From: Isoetes taiwanensis | Lineage: Eukaryota; Streptophyta; Lycopodiopsida; Isoetales; Isoetaceae | NCBI GenBank assembly: GCA_021234155.1 | Contig: JAJEKV010000004.1 | Coordinates: 2,435,248-2,499,247 of the forward strand | DNA length: 64,000 nucleotides | Direction of reading: 5' to 3' | Part shown: positions 17,830 through 52,856 of the stretch, piece after piece | How positions within the stretch are numbered: position 1 is the stretch's first letter | Layout: every line of letters starts with the position of its first letter | Position numbers and translations under genes: made by a program | Notes under the pieces: model-generated | What the model saw: only the letters and a program-made list of their open reading frames with translations | What the model was told of the DNA's origin: nothing | The model's database searches: none

Positions 17830-18600
17830 GGCATGATTGCACAGCTGTAATGTTTATAACGAGGAGGACCATTGGATGAGCTGTATTCAATTACCAAATG
17901 TCCTTGATATTTACAAATGTAGCACCATATTTGCTACGTTGAGATGGTGCAGACTGCGAGATTTCGTGAAATTCTGTGGAAGAAGTATCGACTGCATGAG
18001 AGGAAGATTCGTGAGTGGAACACCACGGGAGGACACATTGACTGAATGATTGGCCAGTTCAATGGCCTGTTCTAAGGACATAGGTCTTAAGTACTCAGTC
18101 ATGAAACGAATGGCCGGTGGGAGACCTTGTAAAAACCAAACCAGAATTTGACGCCTGGTGGGATATTCCTTAAGCTTGCTGACAGTAATAAGTAGAAGGT
18201 CAGCAAAATCACGTGTAAACTCTGTAGTTTGTTGTTGCATATCATTGAGTTGCTTCAGAAGTTGTTGACAATCAGAAGAATAACCAAAGCGGGTCAAAAA
18301 GGTTGTATTCATTTCTCGCCATCTTTGTTTCCAATGGCTTTTATTGGTCATAAGCCATTGATGTGGAGCACCCCGCAGGGTGGTTGAGAAAATGTACAAT
18401 TTAACATGTGGATGTGAGTGTCCATTAAGAACTATAATAGCCTCAAATTCTCCAATATGAGCTTGAATACTCAAATGTGGAATAGGTTTGCCCTTAGCAA
18501 TGCCAGATATGAGAATTTGAGATTGAGATCTGTGACTGTAACAAAGGTTCGCGCAGGATTTTTGAGGACATGAGTAGCAGCAGATAGAATTGGTGCAGAA
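17830..18600 (-). pseudogene. Retrotransposon gag remnant
   Basis: The minus-strand frame reads a retrotransposon gag core: LRGAPHQWLM, WREMNTTFLTRFGY, QQLLKQLNDMQQ, EFTRDFADLL and ILVWFLQGLPPAIRF, the usual spacing of the helical gag domain. The frame is open across the core but has no recognisable start or zinc knuckle in register, so it is treated as a remnant. Confidence 0.75.
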
Positions 18601-19545
18601 CGAGAAAAAATGGGTAATGTTTCCATAATTGAAAAAGGTATGGCCAGTAATAGCAACTGTAGAAGCTGCAGGTGGCAATTAACAAAAAAAAGCATTTGTA
18701 TTGAACCCAGAGGGTGCAGAGAAAGATGGTGCATGAACATCTGGATTCTCGACGCCAGGGTTATTATCCTCTTCTAGTCCCATATGATAGACATTAATGG
18801 GAGTTGGACCAAAGGTGGAAGGCTGATACTCATTGACCTATGTAGGCCCAAAAGGGACTTGCAGATAATCGAGACCATATCATGACGACGAAGGTTGAGA
18901 ATAATGAGGAGAATGCAAAGATGGAATGTGAATATAAGTTCTCTTGGGAGTTTGAGAGTACTATTGGAGAAGGGCAATGAATTGGCATTTGATGAGCAAA
19001 ATTTTGTAGGGGGCGCGAAGGGGACTGCGAACTAGTGCAAAAATGTGCGGTGATCGTGGATGAGAGAGAATACGAGGGGTGGGAGATGTAGAATGAGCAC
19101 GAGATCAATATCTCCCAAGCAAAAGTCGCAGTTAGCCTCCCTCTATTGCTGGCATTCAAGGCGAGCAACAATTTGTTGGAGGATATCCTTCTGAGTGAGG
19201 TGCGATAAGACATAATGAACCGAATGAGAAAAAAACTGAGACCCGATAGCGGCAGCATTGTTTGATTTTGGGTCCTGTTCTAGATAGCATGCAAGACAGT
19301 CCTTTGTGGGGACCCTTGAATCTAACAGACAAATCCTAAGCATAAGATGTCACGCGAGATTTTGCAAAAGAACTTAAAAACAAGGAACAAGAAAGAAAAC
19401 AAGAGAAACATCAATGACAAAATTGAGAATCTCTTGACATGAGAAAACAGAGACTACAAGGATCTTGTTGCAGAGATCAGGAAACAAGAAAATACTACGT
19501 CTTGTCCAGTTTCTAAGTCTAAGCTTCTGAGCTACATAGTATAAT

Positions 19546-34009: not shown

Positions 34010-34300
34010 TTACAGATAATGAAATTACAGATAGTAAAATTACAGTAAAAGACTATCTTGTTTAATGGGATGTCATCTTGTTGTAATCAGACTGTAATCA
34101 TCTATGAGATAAAGTATTAGTACAACTTGTCTTCTATATGTGCAACTTGTCCAACATGTCCCGTGAAATTGGGCGCCCGCCCACTTTGCCCTAGAATGGT
34201 TCCCCTTGAATGCGCATAGTGAATGGTACGCGAAATTGGGCACGGTCAATACTGGCGCTAGAATGTACGCCAATAATTGACATCAATAAATTTTCACCAC

Positions 34301-34308
34301 TATAAAAG
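34301..34308 (+). promoter_or_regulatory. TATA box of the 34.3-kb small gene
   Basis: TATAAAAG about 31 bp before the ATG at 34332, with CCAATAATTG about 30 bp further upstream. The implied leader is very short. Confidence 0.55.
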
Positions 34309-34331
34309 CAGCTCCACTGCATTCATCTCTC

Positions 34332-34574
34332 ATGGCTTCCTTGCCGGATCGTCCGGAGAACATCCGATCCTTCAAGTGCTACTTGAGCTACAACGATATT
34401 AACCAGTGCTATATGAATGGTGTTAGTCTTGATCCATGGCTCCAGTCCAAAGCAGATGGACCTGCGAGTGCTTGCAGGAAGCTCACTCGTGTTGTGGTCC
34501 ACCTGTATTGGCTTCCTGATCAGCAGATCTTTGAGCTGAATGGCATCGCCTTGGCAGGCGTTGACGACGAGTGA
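34332..34574 (+). CDS. Small unrecognised protein, 80 aa
   Basis: ORF from ATG at 34332 to TGA at 34572-34574, starting MASLPDRPENIRSFKCYLSY. It is not recognised. Support is a well-placed TATA box and CAAT-like sequence, and a palindrome at 34166-34187 with a half site at about 34233 in the upstream region. No signal peptide or membrane segment is evident. It may be the first exon of a larger gene. Confidence 0.4.
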   Translation: MASLPDRPENIRSFKCYLSYNDINQCYMNGVSLDPWLQSKADGPASACRKLTRVVVHLYWLPDQQIFELNGIALAGVDDE

Positions 34575-34998
34575 ATCGTTGTAGACTACTGTACCTGACA
34601 AGGATATAATAATGTTGTAAGGATGTAATAAGCATAGTCAATATTATATAATGTAACGTACCTGAGTAATTCCTGAGGGTCTGCTCTTTGATCTCCACTG
34701 TTTCTGCACCTCCACTTCACTTCACGTTTGATGACGTTTCCTCTGCTAGTAAATTGGGCGCCCGCCCAATTTCTGGCTGAGGATAGCGAAGGTCTCAAGT
34801 TAACAGCAACAAGATTGGTCGTGAAATAAATTAAATTAAAGGTTTTAATTTCTACGGGTAACCAACCGCCCAATTTGATTAGCAAAGTAAACTAGAGAAT
34901 TTGAAGACAAAGAAATGAGTGCAACATTATCATTTCTGAAAAAGAAGTAATTACAAATGTTCATAATATATTTCCCATATTTTGAAATCATAAATCGC

Positions 34999-36420
34999 TC
35001 ATTCGTCTGGAGGCACCTCTTCTAAATGATCCTTGCTGGGTTCTTCATGCTGGGGCGGAGATTGTTGTGCTGCCTCTTTGATCTTTTCCATTCTTTGCCT
35101 AAAATCTTCGGACCCCAGTTCCTCATTCTCCTCATCTGCACCCTGATTGTCTTCTGTGTTCGCGACCTCTTCCTCTACATCTTGACTGTTCAATGTGTTG
35201 GGGACCACATCCTCTCCATCCTGATTGTCCCCTTCCTATGTTTCCATGACAACGACAGACTCAGGATCCCTAGCAACCTCTTCCTCGAACTTTGAGGTCG
35301 CCTCAATTATGTCCTGAGTATTCACCAGTGCCGTCCCTGCCAGTGCGTTGATGTTCTACTTTCTTCTCCTAAATAGTTCCAAATCCTGAGAGCTAAGGGC
35401 CGTTGCCTTTTTGAGCTCTAGCTGAATCGAGCTCTTGTCCTGTCTCAGAATGGATTGCACTTCGTTTATGGTTGTAGCGGAGAACGGACAAGGTGTCTCA
35501 GGAGCAGGAAGCTGAGGCTGAGGAACATTTTTGGAAGTAGAGGGCTTCTTCTTTCTAGTGCCCGAGCTCTTGATTTTTTCTCGTCTAACATGACATCGAG
35601 TTGCTCGAATATCTGTACAAGCTTAATTTCCAAGCTTCTCGTCTGTCTCAAAAGACAATGTTTTATAGCCCTCGCACACTGCAACTCGGCTAAAAGCACC
35701 ACCAGAAAAGAAATCGAGAACAGTGCAACCTTCCAACATCAACTTCTGTACTAGATAGGTGCACGTCCTACTTTCCAACTGATTCTGCACGAGTACTCCT
35801 CCCCACCTTTGACCCTTTGTCGCACCAAGGACGATACAGCCAATAAGCTGCAGGGAAAACAAATGTTAGAAACATTCATAGTCAACAACAAAATTGGGCG
35901 GGCGCCCAATTTGAAATGCATACCTGCTCACACTCATGATCAGGCAAATTCTTTTCGATGTCCTGTTGGGAAACTTAGCATATTGCTTAGGATGGTCGGA
36001 ATTGGCGAAGCAAATATTTATTTCCTGCACAGATGGCGGAGCCGCTGCGTCTCTGGCAACATACATTAGCAGGACAAGACATTGCAACTCTCGAACTCTA
36101 GAGGTAGAAGCAGCTTCGCGGGGGTCCCGGTAGGAACCAACCCAAACACGCCGCCACCACCGTCTATTGTCTTCATGGCGGATAGGCACTCATTGAGGCG
36201 GTCCGGGGTAATAAATATAGCTATCCAGTAAAGCTGCTGGTCCGTCATCGTGCTAAGCTGGTCAAGGAATTTTTCATAATCTTCCTTTGGCCATTTCTTT
36301 GTATATCTGAAGTCGCATCCAATGAAGCGGGCAGAAGTGTTTACCACGTCCACGCACAAACCTCGCGGACTAACGTGGAAACACTTGAACGGTTTGCCAC
36401 CCTCTTCAACTGGCCCAAGA
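34999..36420 (-). pseudogene. DNA-methyltransferase-like gene, decayed
   Basis: Minus-strand coding pieces: HVSPRGLCVDVVNTSARFIG, then YTKKWPKEDYEKFLDQLSTM and YWIAIFITPDRLNECLSAM, then PPSVQEINICFANSD. A 70-90 bp intron (donor SR|GTATGC, acceptor CCCTGCAG) with a palindrome inside follows. The next piece holds TVLDFFSGGAFSRVAVCEGY, FETDEK. The last resembles motif I (FxGxG, SAM-binding) of DNA amino-methyltransferases, and its position after the rest of the domain would fit a permuted type. A DPPY-type motif is not clear. An acidic C-terminal tail (NQGADEENEELGSEDF) ends at 34999. At least two frameshifts and two stops in the tail show decay, unless extra introns explain them. The methyltransferase call is an inference from the motif. 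Confidence 0.45.
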
Positions 36421-37926
36421 AGATATTAGCTACTTTCTTTGTAGAGGGACTCGAAAAGCTTTCCTTCTCCATCTCTTTAAGTCCTTCGCCCATCCACTCG
36501 ATACTACTTGGTGAACATAAGCATCAGATTCTCTCGTGAATATGGGATGAGCTTGCCTCAAGGTAGCCATGTCTTGAAAAGGAAGTTTCTTCACTTCCTT
36601 CATGTATCCGGACAAGGGCCCGCTCCATTGTTCCAATCTTCTTCAGCTCTAAGGCTCTGACTTTCATGGTACGTCTCCCAGTATAATCCTTGCTTCCCTT
36701 CAGGAATGTGGTGCCATCCTTGATCTCCTTCATCAGCCTTTGTAGATCTAGAGGATGCATGGACTTTAATGGGCTTACGTGAATTGTTGGTGAAAAGTCT
36801 AAGCCTATTTTTCACTTCAATTCTTTCTCCCCCTCTCGTCCCTTCAACCGGTCTTAGTAAAATAACTGGGCAACTTCTTTGCACATTGACCACGATTATT
36901 CGCTATCAAGATATACAAAGTAGTCGAGTAGTCACGCATAGTTGACTTTTTAATCGCTTGCGGCGCTCATGACTTTCCAATCTGCATGACACGTAGGCAT
37001 TAGAGAAGGCCCATACACATCATCTTAATTTGCGTGCACTAGCGGTCCCAAATTGAAGCCCCACCCAATTTCCGACCATCGACAGCGAATTGGCGGGGCA
37101 TTTTTTCGAACGGTCCCAAATAGGGCGGGCGCCCAATTTGCACTGTTTTCAGGGAAATTGGAAATTCCCAATTTGAAAAGAGTGTCAATCATCTGAAATT
37201 GGGCTGGCTTCAATTTGGCACCGGTGGATAGCACCTGGCTGCAAAAATAATGGTGGTAGTGCACTCACGGGGAATAAGCTCCACCAACGGAGTGCCCGTT
37301 TGCCCTTCTTAGGCTTCAGAATGCCCACCGGTTTTGAAGCTGCTGAATTTCTTGAAGAATACTTCTTCGTGTATAGTCTTCTTTGTTATATCATTATTCT
37401 CCCGGCCGACTTTAACGTGCTTTCGATTCTTTGTGAGATTTCCTACCAGGACTCGGCATTTCCTTTTTGGCATAGAAAAAGAATATCGGTTACGCCAAGT
37501 GCTTCCTTTCAGAGGCCATGCCAAAGCTTGTGTGACAAGCGGTTGAGCAACCGTGGTCGTATGGTTGCCATTTACAATCCAAAATTACGCATTTTTGTGG
37601 GTCCTCCGCCTTCTTCCACTTAATTGCTCGCATGCGTGGATCGAATCGGCCTGACATCAAAGACATGGAGGGTGCATCTGATGGCTGATAAACGATTCGT
37701 AGAGAGTGTCCAAGTGCTCTGGACTTATGACCCTACAAGTCATATTTGCCGGGGCTTTATGCATCTTGAACACATCGACTTCAATCTCGAAGCCCACCCC
37801 CAGAGGGTAGATTCTCTCCCTGTGCTTGATGCTTGCAATGGCGCTCTGTGACAACTCATGTCTGCTCTCCTGTGTGACGTCGCCACCAGATGGAGTGAAC
37901 TTCACGATCTGCCGGCTAGTCTCCCG
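36421..37926 (-). other. Minus-strand coding remnants between the methyltransferase-like and H3-mimic ORFs
   Basis: Open pieces with protein-like composition: SGGDVTQESRHELSQSAIAS with YPLGVGFEIEVDVFKMHKAP (37905-37657), KRKCRVLVGNLTKNRKHVKV (about 37.45 kb), FLKGSKDYTGRRTMKVRALE (about 36.68 kb) and FTRESDAYVHQVVSSGWAKD (about 36.52 kb). None is recognised. They may be exons that join the flanking ORFs into one large gene. A palindrome (37118-37139) and degenerate half sites lie within 37.05-37.21 kb. Confidence 0.4.
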
Positions 37927-38865
37927 TTATTCAGATGAAGAAGCGGACAAAGACTCCCTCTCCGAACTATTTGGGCTCTGTGGTGAGATGTCCCGCTTGC
38001 GCCTCTTGGACGGACCAGCTAAATGTTTTCCTCTGCGCTTAGAGGGTTCCTCTTCAGATGACTGTTCCTCTTCTGCACTCACCTGGGGCGACCTTGCTGT
38101 TCTCGACATTCCACCCAATACAAGTTTAGGGGCAGCTCTACGGGGAATAGCTGTAGCAGGTGTCCTCGCCTTCTTTGCTGCTGTCTCGGTCTCCATGGGC
38201 GCTGGCGCCTGCGCTTGTGCTGTCTCACTCTTCTTGTATCTAGACTTAAGCCACTTAGTATCGTATACTTTAGGTTGGTTTTTGCCTTGATACTCCGTGA
38301 ACAGTGCTTTCGACCTGTTCTGTTTGTGTTCTAATATCCACTGCCTGACAGCGTAGTAGCCGTCCAAGATATCAGTTCTTGATTTGATGCCCGAGCGCTC
38401 TAAACTTTCATATGAGTCTAGCGCCCATCCTTTATGAGCGCAAGATTGTGGGCTTTCCTTTATACTTGCGTTCATCATACATGGCTCGTAGCTAGAAAGT
38501 GGAACTTTATAATGGACGAAAGCCCGATCTACGGTGTCTTCAACATCGATGAGGAAGTCATGATTGTTCTCAGGTGAGACCTCCATGTCGATGACGATAC
38601 CCGCCGAGTTCATTTTTCCTGTCCCTCTCTTGCCAAAGAAAAGCAAAAGATCCTTGAGGTGGTTTGTCTGGGACCCAGGATGAATATTCCCTATCTCTAT
38701 GCACCAGTACCATTCCTCAGCAACCGTCAAAACTTCATGGGGCACTACCTGGATGCCAGCAAACAGCTCTTTCTCTTCTTCTGTTCTTGCATCCTCTCTT
38801 GCAATAGCCTCTGCAAATTTGGGTGCGGGACCAGGAACCCGAGCAGTCTGCTTTGTTCGCGCCAT
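37927..38865 (-). CDS. Protein with exact histone H3 N-terminal tail, 312 aa
   Basis: Intact ORF from ATG at 38865. Residues 1-9 are MARTKQTAR, identical to the start of histone H3 (R2, K4, R8 included); residue 10 is V where H3 has K9, then PGPAPKFAEA. No histone fold follows. Residues 20-120 are unrecognised and acidic in part, 140-210 are mixed (DILDGYYAVRQWILEH, then YDTKWLKSRYKKSE), and 220-312 are low complexity with basic clusters (AKKAR, SKRRGK, SKRRKR) and acidic serine runs, suggesting a nuclear protein. The start is favoured because a good acceptor (TTTCCGTTCTGCAG) lies 8 bp before the ATG, so an upstream non-coding exon is likely. Three palindromes lie 79-214 bp upstream. It could be a decoy for H3K4 readers or writers, or a capsid or transposition protein. 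Function is unknown. Confidence 0.6.
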   Translation of the reverse strand: MARTKQTARVPGPAPKFAEAIAREDARTEEEKELFAGIQVVPHEVLTVAEEWYWCIEIGNIHPGSQTNHLKDLLLFFGKRGTGKMNSAGIVIDMEVSPENNHDFLIDVEDTVDRAFVHYKVPLSSYEPCMMNASIKESPQSCAHKGWALDSYESLERSGIKSRTDILDGYYAVRQWILEHKQNRSKALFTEYQGKNQPKVYDTKWLKSRYKKSETAQAQAPAPMETETAAKKARTPATAIPRRAAPKLVLGGMSRTARSPQVSAEEEQSSEEEPSKRRGKHLAGPSKRRKRDISPQSPNSSERESLSASSSE

Positions 38866-38943
38866 AATAATTCCTGCAGAACGGAAAGTAGTGTTAGTAC
38901 TTGGGAGACTTGGGGCTGAAGAGACGGTTGCATCATAGAGGCC

Positions 38944-39079
38944 AAATTGGGCGCCCGCCCAATTTGGCCGGATCCCTACGCACACCAAATTGGGCGCCCG
39001 CCCAATTTACTCCTGCTCAAATCTACCATCCAAGGAAGTCGTGCTGTCCTTAAGAGTAAATTGGGCGTCCGCCCAATTT
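38944..39079 (-). promoter_or_regulatory. Triple palindrome upstream of the H3-mimic ORF
   Basis: Three full copies (38944-38965, 38987-39008, 39058-39079) in 136 bp, the densest group. The first extends to a 30-bp palindrome (38940-38969) flanked by GGCC. If the acceptor at about 38874 is used, they lie in the 5' intron or promoter. Confidence 0.6.
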
Positions 39080-40261
39080 GGTGTGAAGGAGAAGTTCGTT
39101 CTATTGCCCATGAGCGTAGTGAAGATACCCCTCGTGATAGAAGGGTAGCCTACCGGAGAAAAAGGCCAATGTTGTGCAAAATGAAAGCCCCTCAGAGAAG
39201 CAATTGGGTGCCCTATGAAGTTCTGCACACAGGTATGCATTTGCGGGGACCAGTGAGGCATCTAGAAGATGTTAATTTGTCAGCCACAGCCCAATTTCCT
39301 CAAAGCAAAAGTGGGATACCCCGAGGTTTATGATATGGCATACTCAATCAGGCAGGCGCTCAAGTTTATATTAAGATAAGATAGTAGTCCAGCTTACCTT
39401 TGCCTCCTGTGGTGGGGCGAGATGCCATCAACTGCTAAGATTCCTTGGTGTACAGGGGTTCCCAGGCGATAGGACAATGAACAGAGGAAGGCGCCAACAG
39501 GATGGCGACAAGCGGCCGAGAAACACAAGGCGCCAAGTGCTCGATCCGAAGCCGACAGCTGGTTCGGGAGTATGGTGCGGCGACAGGATAGGGATGAGAA
39601 TGACTTTCGTGGGTAAAAAATATGAAGGCGACAGTGTTAAGCGGAGCAGAAAGCGCCAAAGAAGCACAGAATTTTCTAAAACTGCAGTCGAGGAGAATGA
39701 GGGGCTTTTAAAGGGTTATGGACCTTTCATGAGCGGAAGACAAGTGTCGTGCATGTAAGAGTTTGGCCTTTTCAAATAAAAATGGACCGTTGATGGGTTC
39801 GAGTGTGAGGAATTAATTGTGGACCTTATTAATAAATGCACGGAGATTTTAAATTTCAAATCCGTCATTTAAAGCCTGCCCAAATTTAATTCGAGTCATG
39901 CACGTGTCGCACGTGTTTTAGGCAGGAAGTTGTGTTTAAAAGTTCGGGGCCGGACATATTACTTCGAAATTAGGGGGGACATTTAACTTTCAAAATAGGG
40001 GGGAAATTACATTCAAATTTTGGGGGGAATTTGTGTTTAAATGTAAATGCGCTTCAAACCTATTGTTTTTCCTTTGTATTGCTCTGTTTGGCTACTATCT
40101 TCTCTTCAAGACGCAAACATCTTCAGCGCTTCATACTCATGGCCACGAAATCTCCAAAGGTTTGTGCTGCTCCTCAGTTTTATTCGCCATAGCTCGATGT
40201 ATAATTACTGCAAATCTAATCTGAAGGGATGTAATCATTCACGCCTTTCCATTCACGGATG
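39080..40261. other. Spacer within the palindrome-rich block
   Basis: A small basic open frame (39477-39758, MNRGRRQQDGDKRPRNTRR) is unrecognised and has no promoter signals I can see. Runs such as TTAGGGGGGACATT and AAATTTTGGGGGGAA at 39.97-40.03 kb form a short imperfect repeat. Confidence 0.4.
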
Positions 40262-40345
40262 TTCATTCACACCTCTTCAAGCACGCCTGTTCATTCACAC
40301 CTCTTCATTCACGCCTGTTCATTCACACCTCTTCATTCACGCCTT
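40262..40345. repeat. 14-bp minisatellite TTCATTCACRCCTS, six units
   Basis: Units alternate TTCATTCACACCTC and TTCATTCACGCCTG, giving a 28-bp higher-order period. One unit has AAGCAC in place of ATTCAC. Partial units precede it. Confidence 0.85.
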
Positions 40346-40701
40346 TTCGATGGCGCCTGTTGATTTGCTCCTCATCATTCACCGGGGTGGTAGTTCGGTC
40401 ACATTTTTGAAGTTTGGACTTTGACATCTACTGTCACATTTACATAAACTCTAAGTTTCGATGCAGTCCTTCCTTTTCCTGAAATTGGTGTGCAGAAATT
40501 GTGTGCCTGCTCTTTTCTCCATGCTCGTTTGTTTGTCCCCAAGAACTACCCTGATAAGTCCACCCTTGTTTGTAGTCAGGCCCTTCCAATGCTCGATTGT
40601 ATTTGTTTTGGTAGCTCAATGATAATTCCACTTAGGTGTGCAGTCCAACCCTCCCCCCTTCAATCGAAGGGGGTTCTTTTAGTGTCTGCCTCGTTCAGTT
40701 A

Positions 40702-40757
40702 CATCTACAGAAAGGGACAAATTGGGCGGCCGCCCAGTTTGTCCCTTTGTGTAGATG
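40702..40757. repeat. 56-bp near-perfect palindrome containing one 22-bp site
   Basis: Arms of 28 bp (starting CATCTACAGAAAGGGACAAA) match at 26 of 28 positions with no loop. The centre is GGCGGCCGCC. It is the longest extension of the palindrome family here and could extrude as a cruciform. Confidence 0.9.
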
Positions 40758-41015
40758 ACCAGATAGGTGAAATTGGCCGGGTGGGCAAACTGTATCTCAA
40801 GTTGTGCCTATTGTGCCTTTTCTCAAGTTGTCACTCGAATGTGTTTTCTTTGTGGCAGCTAAATTGGGCGGGCGCCGAGTCTCTGCCTTCTTTACAGTTC
40901 TTCTACAACCACGACCAAATTGGGCGGGCGCCCAATTTGTCCGCGGTCATGGCCTGTTCAGAGCGAGAACCCTTTTTTGTACCCATTGTGAGACTGACTG
41001 CATCAATACTAACCT

Positions 41016-41023
41016 TATATAAG
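41016..41023 (+). promoter_or_regulatory. TATA-like box before the DUF7869-like gene
   Basis: TATATAAG, with the palindrome 41039-41060 centred about 33 bp after its start, where transcription would be expected to begin. The pairing of TATA box and palindrome is by position only. Confidence 0.35.
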
Positions 41024-41058
41024 CGCCTCATTCGGTTCAAATTGGGCGGCCGCCCAAT

Positions 41059-44000
41059 TTGCAACAAGGGGAATCTAAAGACCTCATATGTAAAAAAGGG
41101 CACCCGCCCAATTTCATTGTCCGTGTAACCATTGAATGGCCATCCCCCCATGTCCTTTGCATTGCTTTCTCGTCTTCCTTACTCGATTTTAACACTACTG
41201 AAATCCTTGTGCAGGTTGTGTATCTCTTTCTTAATGAACATCTAGTAGCAAAGGGAGTTGTGGGGCAAATGACACAATGCCACTTCAAGGAAATATCGAA
41301 TGGAGTAGTGAGCGTAGGTGTGGAGGAAGTGTTCGAAGGCCACCATACCCTTCCTTGGCCAACTCCAGATGCAAACACAATAGCAGAAGCCAGGGGCTCA
41401 TTCGTTCTCTGGAGAAGTGAAGATGCTCGTGAGTCGCCGCTAATGACGCCCCCAAAGAAAAGACAAATGGACAGAGGTGGGAAAGGAGACACAACCGCTG
41501 ACAAGATATACCCTTCTTGAAAAGGATTGTGAGATATGGCACTCCTGCGACTCCATTATCGCCGGAAAGGGATTCATATCTTTCACTGGCCCCGATGATG
41601 CAGTTTGTGACCAGTTTCTGGGTTTCAAGTTTGTGGGAGTATCTCAGAATCGAAGATTTCCCTCTCCTTTCTCGAAGTGAACATCCGTTGCGGGGGTTTG
41701 CTTGCACCGCGAAACCAAGGATGCTCGTGAGATGGAACAATGACCTCGTCCGTGTTGATGGAGTAAAGGTCTCGGACATATTGACCGCAAAGATCGCAAC
41801 AGAAGCGAGATATTGTGTCCAGCCGGGGAGCTCGAGCATCGGCAGCACCCAAATTATGAGAAACGACATTACACTTTTCATTCCCGACAGCCCAGGAAGG
41901 TTGTAAGGCCACCAAAGCTTGCTCGTCTCATCACTCAGAATGCTATCCTCAGTTACAGGAGGACCTTGTGTTGCAAGAATAGGTGTTGCGTCAAGTTCTC
42001 TACGAATCAAGTTGTTAACATGCGAAAGGAATTCCTTGCCATGAAATCAAGTGATAGGGTTACTTTTGTTTATGACATCTTCGCCAACAACATGAAAGGT
42101 CGAAGAGTGGGACGACTAGTGCTGCAAGGGAATCTCGTTTGCGAAAGGGCATGGTACCTTGGTCTCGGGATCTCAAAGTCGGCATATCTGAAATGGAAGG
42201 CCCAATTTCTTGAGGGTGCACGCAAGGCCGAACATGGTAACTGTGGCACCTTGAAGCCTCGCTCCTCGACGCTGGCATGTGAGGCCGTGTTTTCCATGTT
42301 TGTGAGGGAGAACGGTGAATCCTTGCCCCACCGCAGTAGGAGAAACGAGGAGGGGATAAGAGAGTACGTCAGGAAGTTGCCTGCAATGTTTACGAAGTCC
42401 AGCATTCTAGAAGAGGTTAATGCAGAGGTTGTGGCATTGACTGGCAAGAAGGTATCACCGACAGGTTTTCATAGAACGTGGAGGCGGAGCTTCCGGGATG
42501 TCAGTATCGCAAAGAAAATTGCATTCTCCAAATGCGATACATGTGAGGTGATCCGTACAAAGTTACTGAAGACCAAAGATGAAGGAGAGAGGAGGATGCT
42601 GCATGATGAAAGAAGAGCGCATAGACTGGAGCAGGCCTCGTGTCGCACACAGTACTGGTCGTGGAGATTATACTCCCACAGGTATCCCGGCCAATATCTT
42701 TGTATTATTCACGACAAAATGGATCAAGCGAAAACAATGATTCCAAAATTGCAACAATCTGTGAAGTCTCTCTGGAGACTTGACAAGCTCAAAACTACAT
42801 TGACTAGTGCATTGACTCATGGCCATGGAAATGGATCCTATGGAAACTTTGCCTTGGACTTATGGCCAGATGACTCTAACTTCCATGTAGGTTCTTTGAA
42901 TAGCATCTTGAAGAGATTAGAGATGGGGCACGCAGTATGCGGGGAGGCCACCCGCCGATTCCCCTAATCATCTGCTCCAAAATGGGTGTCCTCCTTACGA
43001 GACACCACGGCCTTGGGGTCAAAGTTGTCACTATCCAATAACAGCATACCTGCTAATTTGCCACAGGCTGAGGGATCATCATTGAAGCCTCTGCCCAAGA
43101 TACTTTATTTGCAAACCGGACAATGCATCCGACGTAACAAGAATAGGTATGTCTTCTCCTATCTTTCTTACCTAGTATATCTTGGTGTGTTTGAAGAGAG
43201 ATTGAGCTAGGGTTCCCGATGCCCTACCATACACATGATGATATCGATGCCTTGTTTGGTAACTTCTCTACATCTTTAAAGAAGGCCGAGGTGCTCACAA
43301 TGCCGAACCACCGTATGAATTCCACAAATGCAACTTGAATACACCGTGTCCTATGTTGTTGACAAAGTTCCGGATTGGAAGGGTTTTATAGAAGGCTACA
43401 TACCGGATGGGGATGATAGATTGACAGTCATACCACCCCTCTAACTTTCAGATTCGCTATGAATGGTGATTGGCCATCATGTATTACAAAAACTCGACCC
43501 ACTTACTTGGATTGGTTGCCCGGGTTGGTGGAATAAAGATGTGGAAAGAAAAAGAGGACGGGAAGCCCATGATGCCGTTGGATATCCTAAGTCTTCCTCC
43601 CAAGAAATCGGTGAAGGACCTTGGCTCTTTTTGAAACAAGATCCACAAGCATATATTGCATTGGGTTGCTTGTTCAACTAGTAACAAGGTGCTCCGCAAA
43701 TAGCCAAGTACTCTGGCACGCTTCACGCCCACGATTCAATATTGGATGAAACTCTTGCAAGAACTTCGGGAACATCGCCAGGACGAAGGCACTTATAATG
43801 ACTTCGCGCCACGTACTAGGCAAGCGCCAGCTCCACCTCATGTAGTCAGTAGTGGTGGAGCCAATTGCTACTACCACTCCTCCTTATGTCGCCCCCGAAG
43901 GACAAACTGTCTTAGGATTCAACCCATACAAAGATTTGAAGAAAGGTATGTTTATTATGGCACGCCCTGATGATGTGCTGTGCCCAACTTGGGTGGGCCT

Positions 44001-44280
44001 AGCTACTGAGGACCCACAAATGGATGATAAGAAGGAGAACTTTGAGACTATTCTTGTGACTTGGTGGGAGCCAATCCCAGTGAGGAACCAAGTCTACCCA
44101 GCTAATTATGCCAATTGCTGGAAGAAGAGATGGAGGCCAACGACTGCAAGTGACCGCATAGAACTGGAGACTATCGACTACGCTTGGGAGCCATCAAACA
44201 AGAAGAAGATACCTAATACTATTAAGATACCCGTGCATGCTGCTGAGGCATATGCAGCACTCGCAGGGGATGTCAACTAG
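41059..44280 (+). pseudogene. DUF7869-like putative transposase gene, decayed
   Basis: Plus-strand pieces in order. A DUF8039-like segment comes first (VAKGVVGQM, SVGVEEVFEGHHTLPWPTPD, EARGSFVLW, 41240-41430). The longest frame, 41813-42967, holds CCKNRCCVKF, MRKEFLAM, a Cys-rich CDTCEVIRTKLLKT segment, YLCIIHDKMDQAKTMIPKLQ and THGHGNGSYGNFALDLWPDD. Then come NKNRYVFSYLSYLVYLGVFE (about 43.14 kb) and HTHDDIDALFGNFSTSLKKA (about 43.23 kb). A C-terminal module at 43852-44280 (FNPYKDLKKGMFIMARPDD, TWVGLATEDP, FETILVTWWEP) ends at 44280. The acidic blocks HDKMD, the segment before NKNRY and HTHDDID suggest a DDE-like nuclease core; that reading is inference and the family name is from memory. Frame changes and stops between pieces indicate decay or unmarked introns. 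Confidence 0.6.
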
Positions 44281-46134
44281 TGTATGAAAATGAGTCATTC
44301 ATGCAAGTGTACTAAAAAATGGTCCATAAATTCAGGTATTGTCCATAATTAATGAAATTGTGCTTGATAACACAAAAGCTTGTCTCTTGGAACCCGTACA
44401 TATGCCAATATGCTCGTATACTAGCATATCGTTATGCTCGTTTTCTAAACATTGTCAAGGACAATTTTGCTCTTGTTTCATGAATGTCGTGGGTATATTC
44501 ATGCATGTCTAATTAGTATAAACTGCATATTGAAGTCAACAACTTTGATGTCACCATTAGTGTGGTATTTTAAGCTACCATATGTTTCCAATAGTGGTGC
44601 GCGATACTTTGTTGTTATGGGGTGAATAAGAACAAGTGTGCGCCACTCGAAAGTCTAAAATCATATATGATTGCTTGACATAGCCACATAGCTATGTTCA
44701 TATTTCCAACCTATATCATAGGATCCCAAAGACCCACAAGTATAATACGTGCTTTGCCATGTATAATCTTGTTATGACATGTAATCATAATCCATTTACG
44801 TGTCATAATCTAGTGGATGATGTTATCCACAAGAACTTTCAATTCTTGTTAACTAGTCCGCATAGGCAAACTCTAGTTCGAAGTGCCCATACCCTAGGGA
44901 GCAATTTCTAGAAGGAGGGGCACAAACCCAAATTGCTAGTACAAGTGTGTATAAAGCACAACTTAGGAACTCAAACGCACTTTCCCCCCATATGCCATAC
45001 GACTGTGAATTGAGGGTTCTATCATCTTCCTTTCTTCCTTTCTTTCTTTCTTTCATGCTTCGTGATTTTACAATTTGTTGAAATCCTTGGACCAACATAA
45101 CTCAGGAATTAATTCTTGTCAGCAAGGATAAATTCTATATCGAGCACCCCCTCCGAGACAAGGCGGGAGAGAACCTCCTCCGCACACTGCAACATGGATG
45201 TTGCTTTTGGAGGATACAAATGAGGAAATGCTTCTCGATATGGAGGACCACATTAGCGAACTATCTAGAGCAATGGACACTTTGTTTGATCTCTTAATAG
45301 TGAGCCCTACCATATATTGAGTCAAGCTTTGTATATATGATATATTGTTATCAATAATCTACATTCTATGTGAATAAATTAGTATCAGCTAGTTCCTACT
45401 AGCAATGCTAGTTATTATTGTTCCATATGATCATAAACCACCATCCAGTCCTGGCGCTTGTTCCAAACAAGTTATCATTCATAAAGGAATTTCATACTCC
45501 AAGAAAAGTAATTTTCGACCTAACACATTCGGAATCTCTTCGAGATTCTTACTCTTGTAACCCTAATAGGAAATGTAATCTCTCATTTCTAGCCTCCCAC
45601 ATGCGTTATTGTTTGGGGTTCAACTTCCATGGCTAATGCATTATTTAATTGCCATTTTTCTTAAACAATTGCTCCATATACTAGCAATTGTCTTCTTCCT
45701 TCACTCAAAGTCATGTAGCCATGTCTTCCTATTGGATGTTAGTTAGCCCAAATAGAAGATAAGACACACACCATTTCATGTTTGGTTACCACACATGTTG
45801 AGCATGTAGTTGACCAAGATCACTAAGTGTATCCGGGGTAACTATTTCCTAGGGACCCGCCTAATATTACAATGTCAACCTTTTACTTCCACATGAATCG
45901 TTCTTGATTCTACTTGTAATAGACATAAAACATAGGATCAACATTCTCTATTTTGACTATCATTATTAGAAACCTACACTACTAAAGTGATATCCTTTTC
46001 ATAAGCTCAATATTTATAATCTAGTTTGTACACTACTACACTGCCTACCTAACATGTTCTATGAATGTAATCATTATCCACTTGCCCTCAAACACATGGT
46101 GCTATATATGGTACCATGATAGCTACATGGTAGT
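44281..46134. other. Spacer, no gene seen
   Basis: AT-rich, with a short CTTT-type tract near 45.03 kb. No coding exon recognised. Confidence 0.45.
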
Positions 46135-46675
46135 TATATATAGAGTTTTTTTGCATCGAGTATTTATACACAGTGTATTTATACATTGTGTATTTATACA
46201 TATCATATTTATACATAGAGCGGTTAAATATAGAGTAATTAGACATAGAGTATTTATGCATAGAGTATTTGTACATAGAGTAGTTATACATAGAGTATCT
46301 GTACATATAGAGTTTTTATGCATCGAGTATTTATACAACAGTGTATTTATACGTTGTGTATTTATACATATCATATTTATACATAGAGCGGTTAAATATA
46401 GAGTAATTAGACATAGAGTTTTTATGCATAGAGTATTTATACGTAGTATATTTATACATACAATATGTATACATAGAAAATTTATACATAGAGTATTTAT
46501 ACATAGAGTATTTATACATAGAGTATTTGTACATAGAATATTTGTACATAGAGTGGTTGTACATAGAGTAATTAAACATAGAGTTATTATGTATAGAGTA
46601 TCTATATATAGTGTATTTATACAAAGTACCATAGAGAATTTATACAGAGTATACAGAGTATATAGAGTACATAGA
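46135..46675. repeat. 15-bp minisatellite TATTTATACATAGAG with 167-bp higher-order repeat
   Basis: About 35 variant units. A block beginning AGAGTTTTT at 46142 is repeated from 46309 with the same order of variants (a GCGGTTAAATATAGAG unit, then a GTAATTAGACATAGAG unit), so the array grew partly by duplication of a 167-bp block. The long Tyr/Ile/Met-rich ORFs on both strands are artefacts of the 15-bp period. Confidence 0.9.
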
Positions 46676-46689
46676 GAATTCTATTTTCC

Positions 46690-51711: not shown

Positions 51712-51940
51712 TAACGCATCTCTACGTGGACGGTGACGCGGCAAAAAATAGGAAAAAGGGGCCGCGTATGAGAAATTGTTGTTCAAAATATGCACCATAG
51801 CCGGCCCTCTGCCCTGTTGCGCACTATCCATCGATTATTGCCCTACTTCCCATCTTCAATTCCGGTCTCACTCCCACCTGCAGGATCCAGAAGCATGTAA
51901 GTGCCTTATTATTCCTCTGAAGTTTTTTGGGTGTTGTAGG

Positions 51941-52856
51941 ATGGGAGCTTTCATGTCCAGGATTTGGTTTATGCTGTTTCCGGCAAAGGAATATAAAATA
52001 GTCGTAGTTGGCCTTGATAATGCTGGCAAGACAACTACACTCTATAAGCTTCATCTTGGCGAAGTAGTGGTCACACAACCTACTGTTGGAAGCAATGTCG
52101 AAGAAATTGTGTACAAGAATATCAGATTTGAGGTATGGTCTGTTGGAAATTGTTTAGGCCTGTTTTATTCTTGAGGATTTTGCTAGAATAGTTTTAGCGC
52201 TGATGGTGTAGTCAGATTTCTTCTATAAGTTGTTTCCCAAACGCTGTTACTCTTCTATCACATAACATAGATAATTGTCTGAACTTGGAAGCTTTGATCT
52301 AACTAATAACATTAATATTTGCTACCACCAATAGACCTTCTTTCCAGGCTTACTGATAGTTTTAAAACTTAACTAAGAAGTGCAACACTTTTTGATAATT
52401 CAGTCGGGATTTCTAGTTCATGTGCCTTCCTCTTAGTTTTCTCTACTGTTTAGGTTTTTTATGTCCATATGCCTTCTTCTTAGTCTTTCTACTGTTTAGG
52501 TATGGGATTTAGGTGGCCAAGAACGATTGCGGATGTCATGGGCAACATATTTTAGAGGGACCCATGCTGTGATATTAGTTGTTGATAGTACAGACCGTGC
52601 AAGGGTTGCAGTAATCAAGGATGAACTCTTTAGGCTCTTGCAACATGAAGATCTTCAGCAAGCAGTGGTTCTAGTATTTGCAAATAAGCAAGATTTGAAG
52701 GATGCAATGACACCAGCAGAAATCAGTGATGCGTTGTCACTGCATGCGATCAAGAATCATGATTGGCACATCCAGGCCTGCTGTGCTTTGACAGGAGAAG
52801 GGTTGTTTGATGGTTTAGGATGGATTGCACAACATGTTACTGGGAATAAAGCTTGA
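51941..52856 (+). CDS. ARL5: ADP-ribosylation factor-like GTPase ARL5, two exons
   Basis: Small Golgi-associated GTPase of 182 residues; ARL5 proteins act at the trans-Golgi in endosome-to-Golgi traffic. Exons 51941-52132 and 52500-52856, GT-AG, phase 0 at E|VWDLGG. The start MGAFMSRIW gives Gly2 for N-myristoylation and matches the family; a longer upstream frame exists but is not ARF-like. G1 is GLDNAGKT (residues 24-31), G2 T48, G3 DLGGQ (67-71), G4 NKQD (126-129) and G5 CAL (159-161); all are intact. Long identical runs to animal and plant ARL5 ([48 protein letters not shown]) make identity secure. A 5' leader intron ending in GTTGTAG|G before the ATG is possible. Confidence 0.95.

Follow-up and report, generated by a model that had tools for sequence, protein, structure and literature searches.

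In a 64 kb stretch of Isoetes taiwanensis DNA (the window), a frame that opens with residues 1-8 of the histone H3 tail, ARTKQTAR, is by its sequence part of an accessory gene carried by a terminal-inverted-repeat (TIR) DNA transposon of about 12 kb (F1), which bears a DUF7869 transposase on the opposite strand. Codon comparisons among copies within this one genome indicate that the peptide is kept by selection while the rest of the predicted accessory protein has diverged. We put the probability at roughly 55% that this represents selected mimicry of H3 by a peptide which lies mainly inside the accessory protein. The relevant features of the window are listed below, G1, G2 and G3 being three subfamilies according to our own grouping.

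34071-44365, no strand assigned: F1 copy; left end absent from 34071, right end a TIR (blastn against copies C1034, C1040 and C1030).
44341-44365, minus strand: right TIR, AAGCACAATTTCATTAATTATGGAC, identical in C1034 and C1040.
42104-43739, plus strand: decayed transposase gene with DUF7869 (tblastn 98.6% and 71% to C1034).
39398-39428, minus strand: exon 1 of the accessory gene; ATG, 10 codons plus 1 nt (MASRPTTGGK+G), then donor gtaagc; place and phase shared by G1, G2 and G3 copies.
37271-38873, minus strand: exon 2, decayed; acceptor CTGCAG before 38873, open from 38865 to 37930, remains to about 37271.
38839-38862, minus strand: ARTKQTAR codons (H3 residues 1-8); V replaces K9.
35930-36975, minus strand: remains of exon 3 with stops and frameshifts (tblastn with C1040 exon 3).
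35281-35848, minus strand: remains of exon 4 (tblastn), including the stretch VLDFFSGGAFSR, which looks like methyltransferase motif I.
34164-41114, no strand assigned: 24-nt mostly palindromic repeat of the type CAAATTGGGCG[GC]CGCCCAATTTG; 13 copies, 75-100% to the reference copy.

The frame runs for 312 codons on the minus strand (ATG 38865-38863, stop 37929-37927) and opens with MARTKQTARVPGPAPKF; an AG acceptor stands 8 nt 5' of the ATG at 38865. The preliminary description of this DNA had reported a MARTKQTAR start with R2, K4 and R8 present and K9 replaced by V, and the window sequence bears this out, with identity to H3 residues 1-8 at 8/8 positions, or 9/9 with the Met counted. The degenerate pattern for ARTKQTAR would arise by chance with p = 2.3e-10 per position if an even base composition is assumed, corresponding to an expectation of 3e-5 in 64 kb with both strands counted and 0.8 per genome; given the values per position and per window, its presence in the window is not attributed to chance. 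The further claim that the tail sits on a non-histone protein was upheld, as no H3 fold was found in the F1 protein, H3 and F1 exon 2 aligned usefully over the first 14 residues only, and a Pfam search of exons 2, 3 and 4 of copy C907 returned no Histone domain. With respect to the 312-codon frame as a protein, the earlier claim held only in part. The frame exists, but it represents the open remnant of a decayed exon 2 and not a whole protein, because its stop at 37929-37927 is specific to the window copy, with C1040, C919, C907 and C1070 reading through, and because decayed sequence from the later part of exon 2, from exon 3 and from exon 4 is present at 37887-35281.

The location of this frame in a mobile element, also proposed earlier, was supported by TIRs, dispersed copies and the DUF7869 transposase. 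The genome searched (G000) comprised 1,658,258,908 bases (1.658 Gb) in 1,110 contigs. A protein search gave 2,410 first-look candidates, of which 127 were scored to yield 130 matched stretches, a few of these being pieces of one copy. By blastn, C1034 and C1040 continue leftward for ~2.0 and ~1.9 kb beyond the point matching window position 34071; the two copies span 11,951 and 12,484 bp and both end in inverted repeats (AAGCAYAATTTCATTAATTRTGGAC), giving TIRs at both ends in 2/2 copies spanned. Their left repeats differ from the right TIR at 2/25 positions. A TIR with 3/25 and 2/25 differences was present at one end each of the G2 copy C907 and the G3 copy C1070, and a TIR match was also found at one end of the G1 copy C919. 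The 4-bp flanks of the element, candidates for a target-site duplication, were identical in C1040 (CAAG/CAAG) and equal at 3/4 positions in C1034 (TGTT/GGTT). DUF7869 (PF25273) was matched at E 6.1e-43 in copy C1034 and at 0.011 in the window frame, and in the C1034 match and its TIRs F1 is like DUF7869 transposons. The transposase was also present in a G3 copy (79-87%) and was not found in the 19.8 kb examined of a G2 copy. The 24-nt mostly palindromic repeat is possibly a binding site for a protein of the element. By eye, this repeat was also seen in copies from G2 and G3, where it lies 5' of exon 2.

Other features of the window were also observed. A retrotransposon gag frame is present at 17914-18678 on the minus strand (Retrotrans_gag E 1.5e-8, Ty3_capsid 9.6e-7), degenerate 15-bp tandem repeats that are open in several frames on both strands occupy 46100-46688, and a plus-strand frame at about 51900-52174 resembles, by eye, a small GTPase of the ARF type at its beginning.

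The full accessory gene, including exon 1, is predicted to comprise 4 exons and about 1,200 codons. In copy C907 exon 2 has 540 codons from the Met, exon 3 has 356 and exon 4 has about 295; a single stop interrupts exon 3 close to its end. The end of exon 2 might be ParB-like, and a stretch of exon 4, VLDFFSGG-FSRA-CEGYK, is one which we take to resemble DNA methyltransferase motif I. For this motif-I-like stretch in other copies, PHROG gave weak DNA methyltransferase matches (E 0.0033 in G2, 0.34 in a G1 composite), and neither ParB nor methyltransferase families were matched in Pfam or NCBIfam. Pfam returned no match for the 312-codon frame and none at E up to 1 for C907 exons 2 and 3, while C907 exon 4 matched AF1548-like_C only (E 0.046). 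NCBIfam gave nothing useful for the accessory protein, and exon 2 had no match among solved structures. ClpB-like matches of exons 3-4 among solved structures (E 0.05-0.35) were taken as chance. No related locus was confirmed for the F1 accessory protein in viral contigs, and the best result from phages was one match each at E = 3.

To assess conservation of the peptide we used 105 copies, namely 100 fetched of the 130 matches together with 5 more starting within the first 15 residues; 24 matches starting later and one fragment were excluded. MARTKQTAR was exact in 53/105 copies, decayed copies included, and in 33/51 copies with 200 or more open codons, and was specified by 12 codings. Among the 53 exact copies the residue after R8 was V in 43, M in 7, L in 2 and A in 1, and K in 0. 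The G2 and G3 proteins share 46-57% identity with the window protein, and G2 rows share 57-67% with one G3 row. Between subfamilies, codons 1-9 showed a pN of 0.034 (median 0.285) at a pS of 0.89 in the 42 in-frame rows, ranking 1/202 codon windows for low pN; with all 51 rows, 9 of which were judged to have lost the frame before codon 10, pN was 0.182 and the rank 46/202. The preliminary description had raised the conservation of the start while the rest diverges as a point to be checked, and this pattern was found, most clearly in the in-frame rows. In a hand-picked set of 33 rows, codons 1-9 had a pN of 0.029 (rank 1/212) and codons 10-34 a pN of 0.34-0.45. This alignment consisted of 30/51 open frames plus the longer versions L112, L113 and L115, and the 21 rows dropped from it include decayed starts, which biases it towards conservation; for this reason the counts were repeated with 51 and 42 rows. 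The transposase, compared between the window and one G3 copy, gave pN of 0.07 and 0.12 at pS of 0.73 and 0.78, and by this comparison of pN and pS the peptide is at least as constrained as the transposase.

Natural variants were observed among the copies: ARTKSTAR (Q5S) in L076 and L083, and ARTRQTAR (K4R) in L086. The decayed copies L019, L020, L024, L037, L066 and L067, along with others, have odd start changes in common, for example GCTTGAACAAAGCGG for GCGCGAACAAAGCAG. These are small insertions and swaps, which reflect either decay or assembly error.

The preliminary description placed the H3 residues exactly at the initiator Met. This Met is indeed conserved, but its role as initiator is doubtful, since a conserved upstream coding exon would put the peptide inside the product. 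In the window, exon 1 (39428-39398, then gtaagc) joined to exon 2 reads in frame as MASRPTTGGKGIIMARTKQTAR. The G1 exon 1 is 31 nt in length (ATG GCA TCT CGC CCC ACC ACA GGA GGC AAA G, then gtaagc); its equivalents are MESRPTKEGK+G followed by gtaatg in G2, and MEKRPLKEGK+G or MEHRPSKAGN+G followed by gtactg in G3, with the place, the phase and the pattern M..RP...GK common to all three subfamilies. Of 21 copies examined for exon 1, 15 keep the 31 nt, two have in-frame deletions of 3 and 9 nt (L033 and C907), two are frameshifted (L022 and L074) and two have no match (L035 and L048). The joint between exons 1 and 2 is in frame in 11/13 copies matched by pattern, a change in the acceptor shifting it in L052 and L062, and no spliced retrocopy of the joint was found among 40 scored matches. 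From the conservation of exon 1, the likeliest product begins with M..RP...GK and carries ARTKQTAR internally from residue 14 or 15.

A product that starts at the Met of MARTKQTAR, loses this Met and exposes Ala1 as in H3, where readers of the free end would bind it, was the version put forward in the preliminary description, and we consider it unlikely in the face of an upstream coding exon conserved across three subfamilies. All 33 hand-picked rows have the Met in front of ARTKQTAR, as would be expected of a start codon, and the sequence context of the two ATGs can be read in either direction. At the second ATG, position -3 is A in G1 and G or C in G2, and at the exon 1 ATG it is T in the inspected copies of G1, G3 and L088, so that leaky scanning would be permitted in G1; however, -3 of the exon 1 ATG is G in C907 and C in L074, and -3 of the second ATG is C in G3. 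In L074 exon 1 is out of frame yet exon 2 is open, with a TATA-like stretch 80 nt before the second ATG, and such stretches also occur in the intron of six of seven G1 copies and of L080 as well as L074 (-80). In the H3-fold repeats described below, a TATA box precedes MARTKQTAR by about 105 nt in 7/8 loci. Against this, 2/3 G2 copies have a TATA pattern ~120-130 nt before the exon 1 ATG, with no ATG between by eye; in G1 none was found there by pattern. Some H3 readers need a free Ala1 amine, and readers of this kind would bind the F1 protein only with a start at the second ATG or after removal of the leader.

Under the reading that we prefer, selected mimicry with a mainly internal peptide, most of the product would start at exon 1, and ARTKQTAR, beginning at residue 14 or 15, would lie in a tail that is probably flexible. 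The peptide could then serve as a bait or docking site for host readers and writers of the H3 tail which act around R2-T3-K4-T6-R8. PHD, WDR5-like, methyltransferase or demethylase proteins, the putative partners named in the preliminary description, may be among those that bind. Through docking the element would either gain an activity associated with active chromatin or remodelling, or titrate a factor involved in silencing. At position 9 the hydrophobic residue would keep the peptide from being a substrate for H3K9 methylation, so that no silencing mark would be placed on it. Initiation at the second ATG would yield a lesser product with Ala1 exposed, as it is in H3.

The peptide might instead be kept for a reason unrelated to histones, such as nuclear import or contact of a basic tail with DNA or RNA, in which case the identity to H3 would be convergence. 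Basic tails are common in DNA-binding proteins, and both the lack of an H3 fold in the F1 protein and the loss of H3 residues from K9 onward would fit such an explanation. However, K/R, T/S and Q changes, which a generic basic tail would be expected to tolerate, are few among the F1 copies; moreover the match to the H3 start extends to 9/9 residues including the Met, and in other repeats of the genome this tail is combined with an H3 fold. We therefore regard convergence as improbable. Recent capture of an H3 fragment too young to have decayed, with which one might associate the many decayed copies and the 52/105 that are no longer exact, is very improbable indeed and was rejected as neutral capture on the codon data, since pS is near 0.9 between subfamilies at a pN of 0.03 and there are 12 codings.

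The H3 tail is also present in other repeats of this genome. A search with the pattern ARTKQTA(R/S), which ignores the last base and thereby admits ARTKQTAS (as in L136), gave 927 + 1,007 = 1,934 places, compared with 0 + 0 for the reversed control. Eight loci (L132-L139; contigs C1, C2, C3 and C4), the first in contig order and not a random sample, were read. The tail followed an ATG in 8/8, K came next in 6/8, and a TATA box was located about 105 nt before the ATG in 7/8. A match to the H3 fold lay 0.7-1.3 kb downstream, with E from 1.8e-30 to 1.3e-8 in seven loci and a weak 0.009 in L136, and a charged linker separated tail and fold; the Pfam Histone domain was matched at E 6.8e-23 in L139 and 1.2e-13 in L137. 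These loci look like a repeat encoding H3 with a giant insert in its tail.

Searching the genome with H3.1 as query produced 9,022 first-look candidates, a rough class. Among the matches listed, 15 were full-length at 96-98% and were taken as H3 genes, and 135 more, at 71-86% and mostly from residue 25-36 on, lay in frames open for as many as 567 codons. An H4 query gave 69 first-look candidates; of its 43 matches, 16 covered the full length at 99-100%. Between the two histones, thousands of first-look candidates were thus seen for H3 only (9,022 vs 69). One frame (L010:4934-5842, in the region C1034:3918534-3920581) ends in an H3 fold, with Histone at E 2.6e-40 and 86% identity to H3.1 residues 37-134, and is followed after 149 nt by a second frame (L010:5992-6981) for which 6,201 first-look candidates were obtained and 121 scored. 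Among the best places listed, the two frames formed 37 pairs within 15 kb, compared with 0.3 expected. Membership of the H3-fold repeats in the DUF7869 group was considered and found unsupported, with 0 co-located pairs between 135 and 150 listed best places, a small sample. Their number, together with the loci read, suggests that mobile repeats make up most of the 1,934 tail and 9,022 fold places.

We tentatively suggest, as a reading that may well prove incorrect, that mobile elements of I. taiwanensis took up H3 in pieces more than once, as tail only, as tail with linker and fold, and as fold behind another domain, and that they encode H3-like proteins and tail baits which would steer or enter host chromatin, F1 being readable at K4 and not silenced at K9. 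The forms observed that bear on this suggestion are the tail only, without K9, in F1, and the tail, mostly with K9, followed by a long charged linker and the fold (eight places read of 1,934). A third form, the H3 fold behind another domain and adjoining a second gene, apparently exists in thousands of copies.

Should the peptide have the function to which its conservation points, F1 would be a transposon with a selected handle on the H3-tail machinery of its host, in which K4 is kept and K9 lost. As repeats of the host also encode H3 folds, this would provide a natural and testable system for mobile DNA that steers silencing, with tail peptides with and without K9 available for comparison.

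Proteins with H3-like N-termini are reportedly the subject of work by Chen et al., going by its title. A transposon-encoded H3 tail was not found in the part of the literature searched. Neither of the words 'transposon' and 'histone' appears in the main text of the I. taiwanensis genome paper (PMC8566536), and 'histone' is absent from the I. sinensis paper (PMC10541799). NS1 of influenza A H3N2 carries an ARSK tail, an H3 mimic that engages PAF1C and CHD1 (PMC10208167), and is like F1 in that a genetic parasite encodes a non-histone protein bearing a short peptide that resembles the H3 tail. In NS1, however, the likeness comprises four residues at the C-terminus of an RNA virus protein, whereas F1 has 8/8 H3 residues near the N-terminus of a protein from a DNA transposon in a plant, preserved despite saturated divergence. 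Histone-like motifs proposed to draw or disturb chromatin factors have also been described for SARS-CoV-2 ORF8 (ARKS), HDV S-HDAg and adenovirus protein VII (PMC10208167), the claim for ORF8 being disputed (PMC10833455); these are other motifs, whereas F1 keeps the K4 region and is without K9. Viral histones, such as bracovirus H4 and the doublet histones of marseillevirus (PMC10208167 Table 1), are like the H3-fold repeats of I. taiwanensis in that parasitic DNA encodes histones, whereas F1 itself has no histone fold. Viral proteins with H3-tail motifs have been described (PMC10208167); within the literature searched, what is new here is that the complete H3 1-8 peptide is kept under selection in a protein of a transposon.
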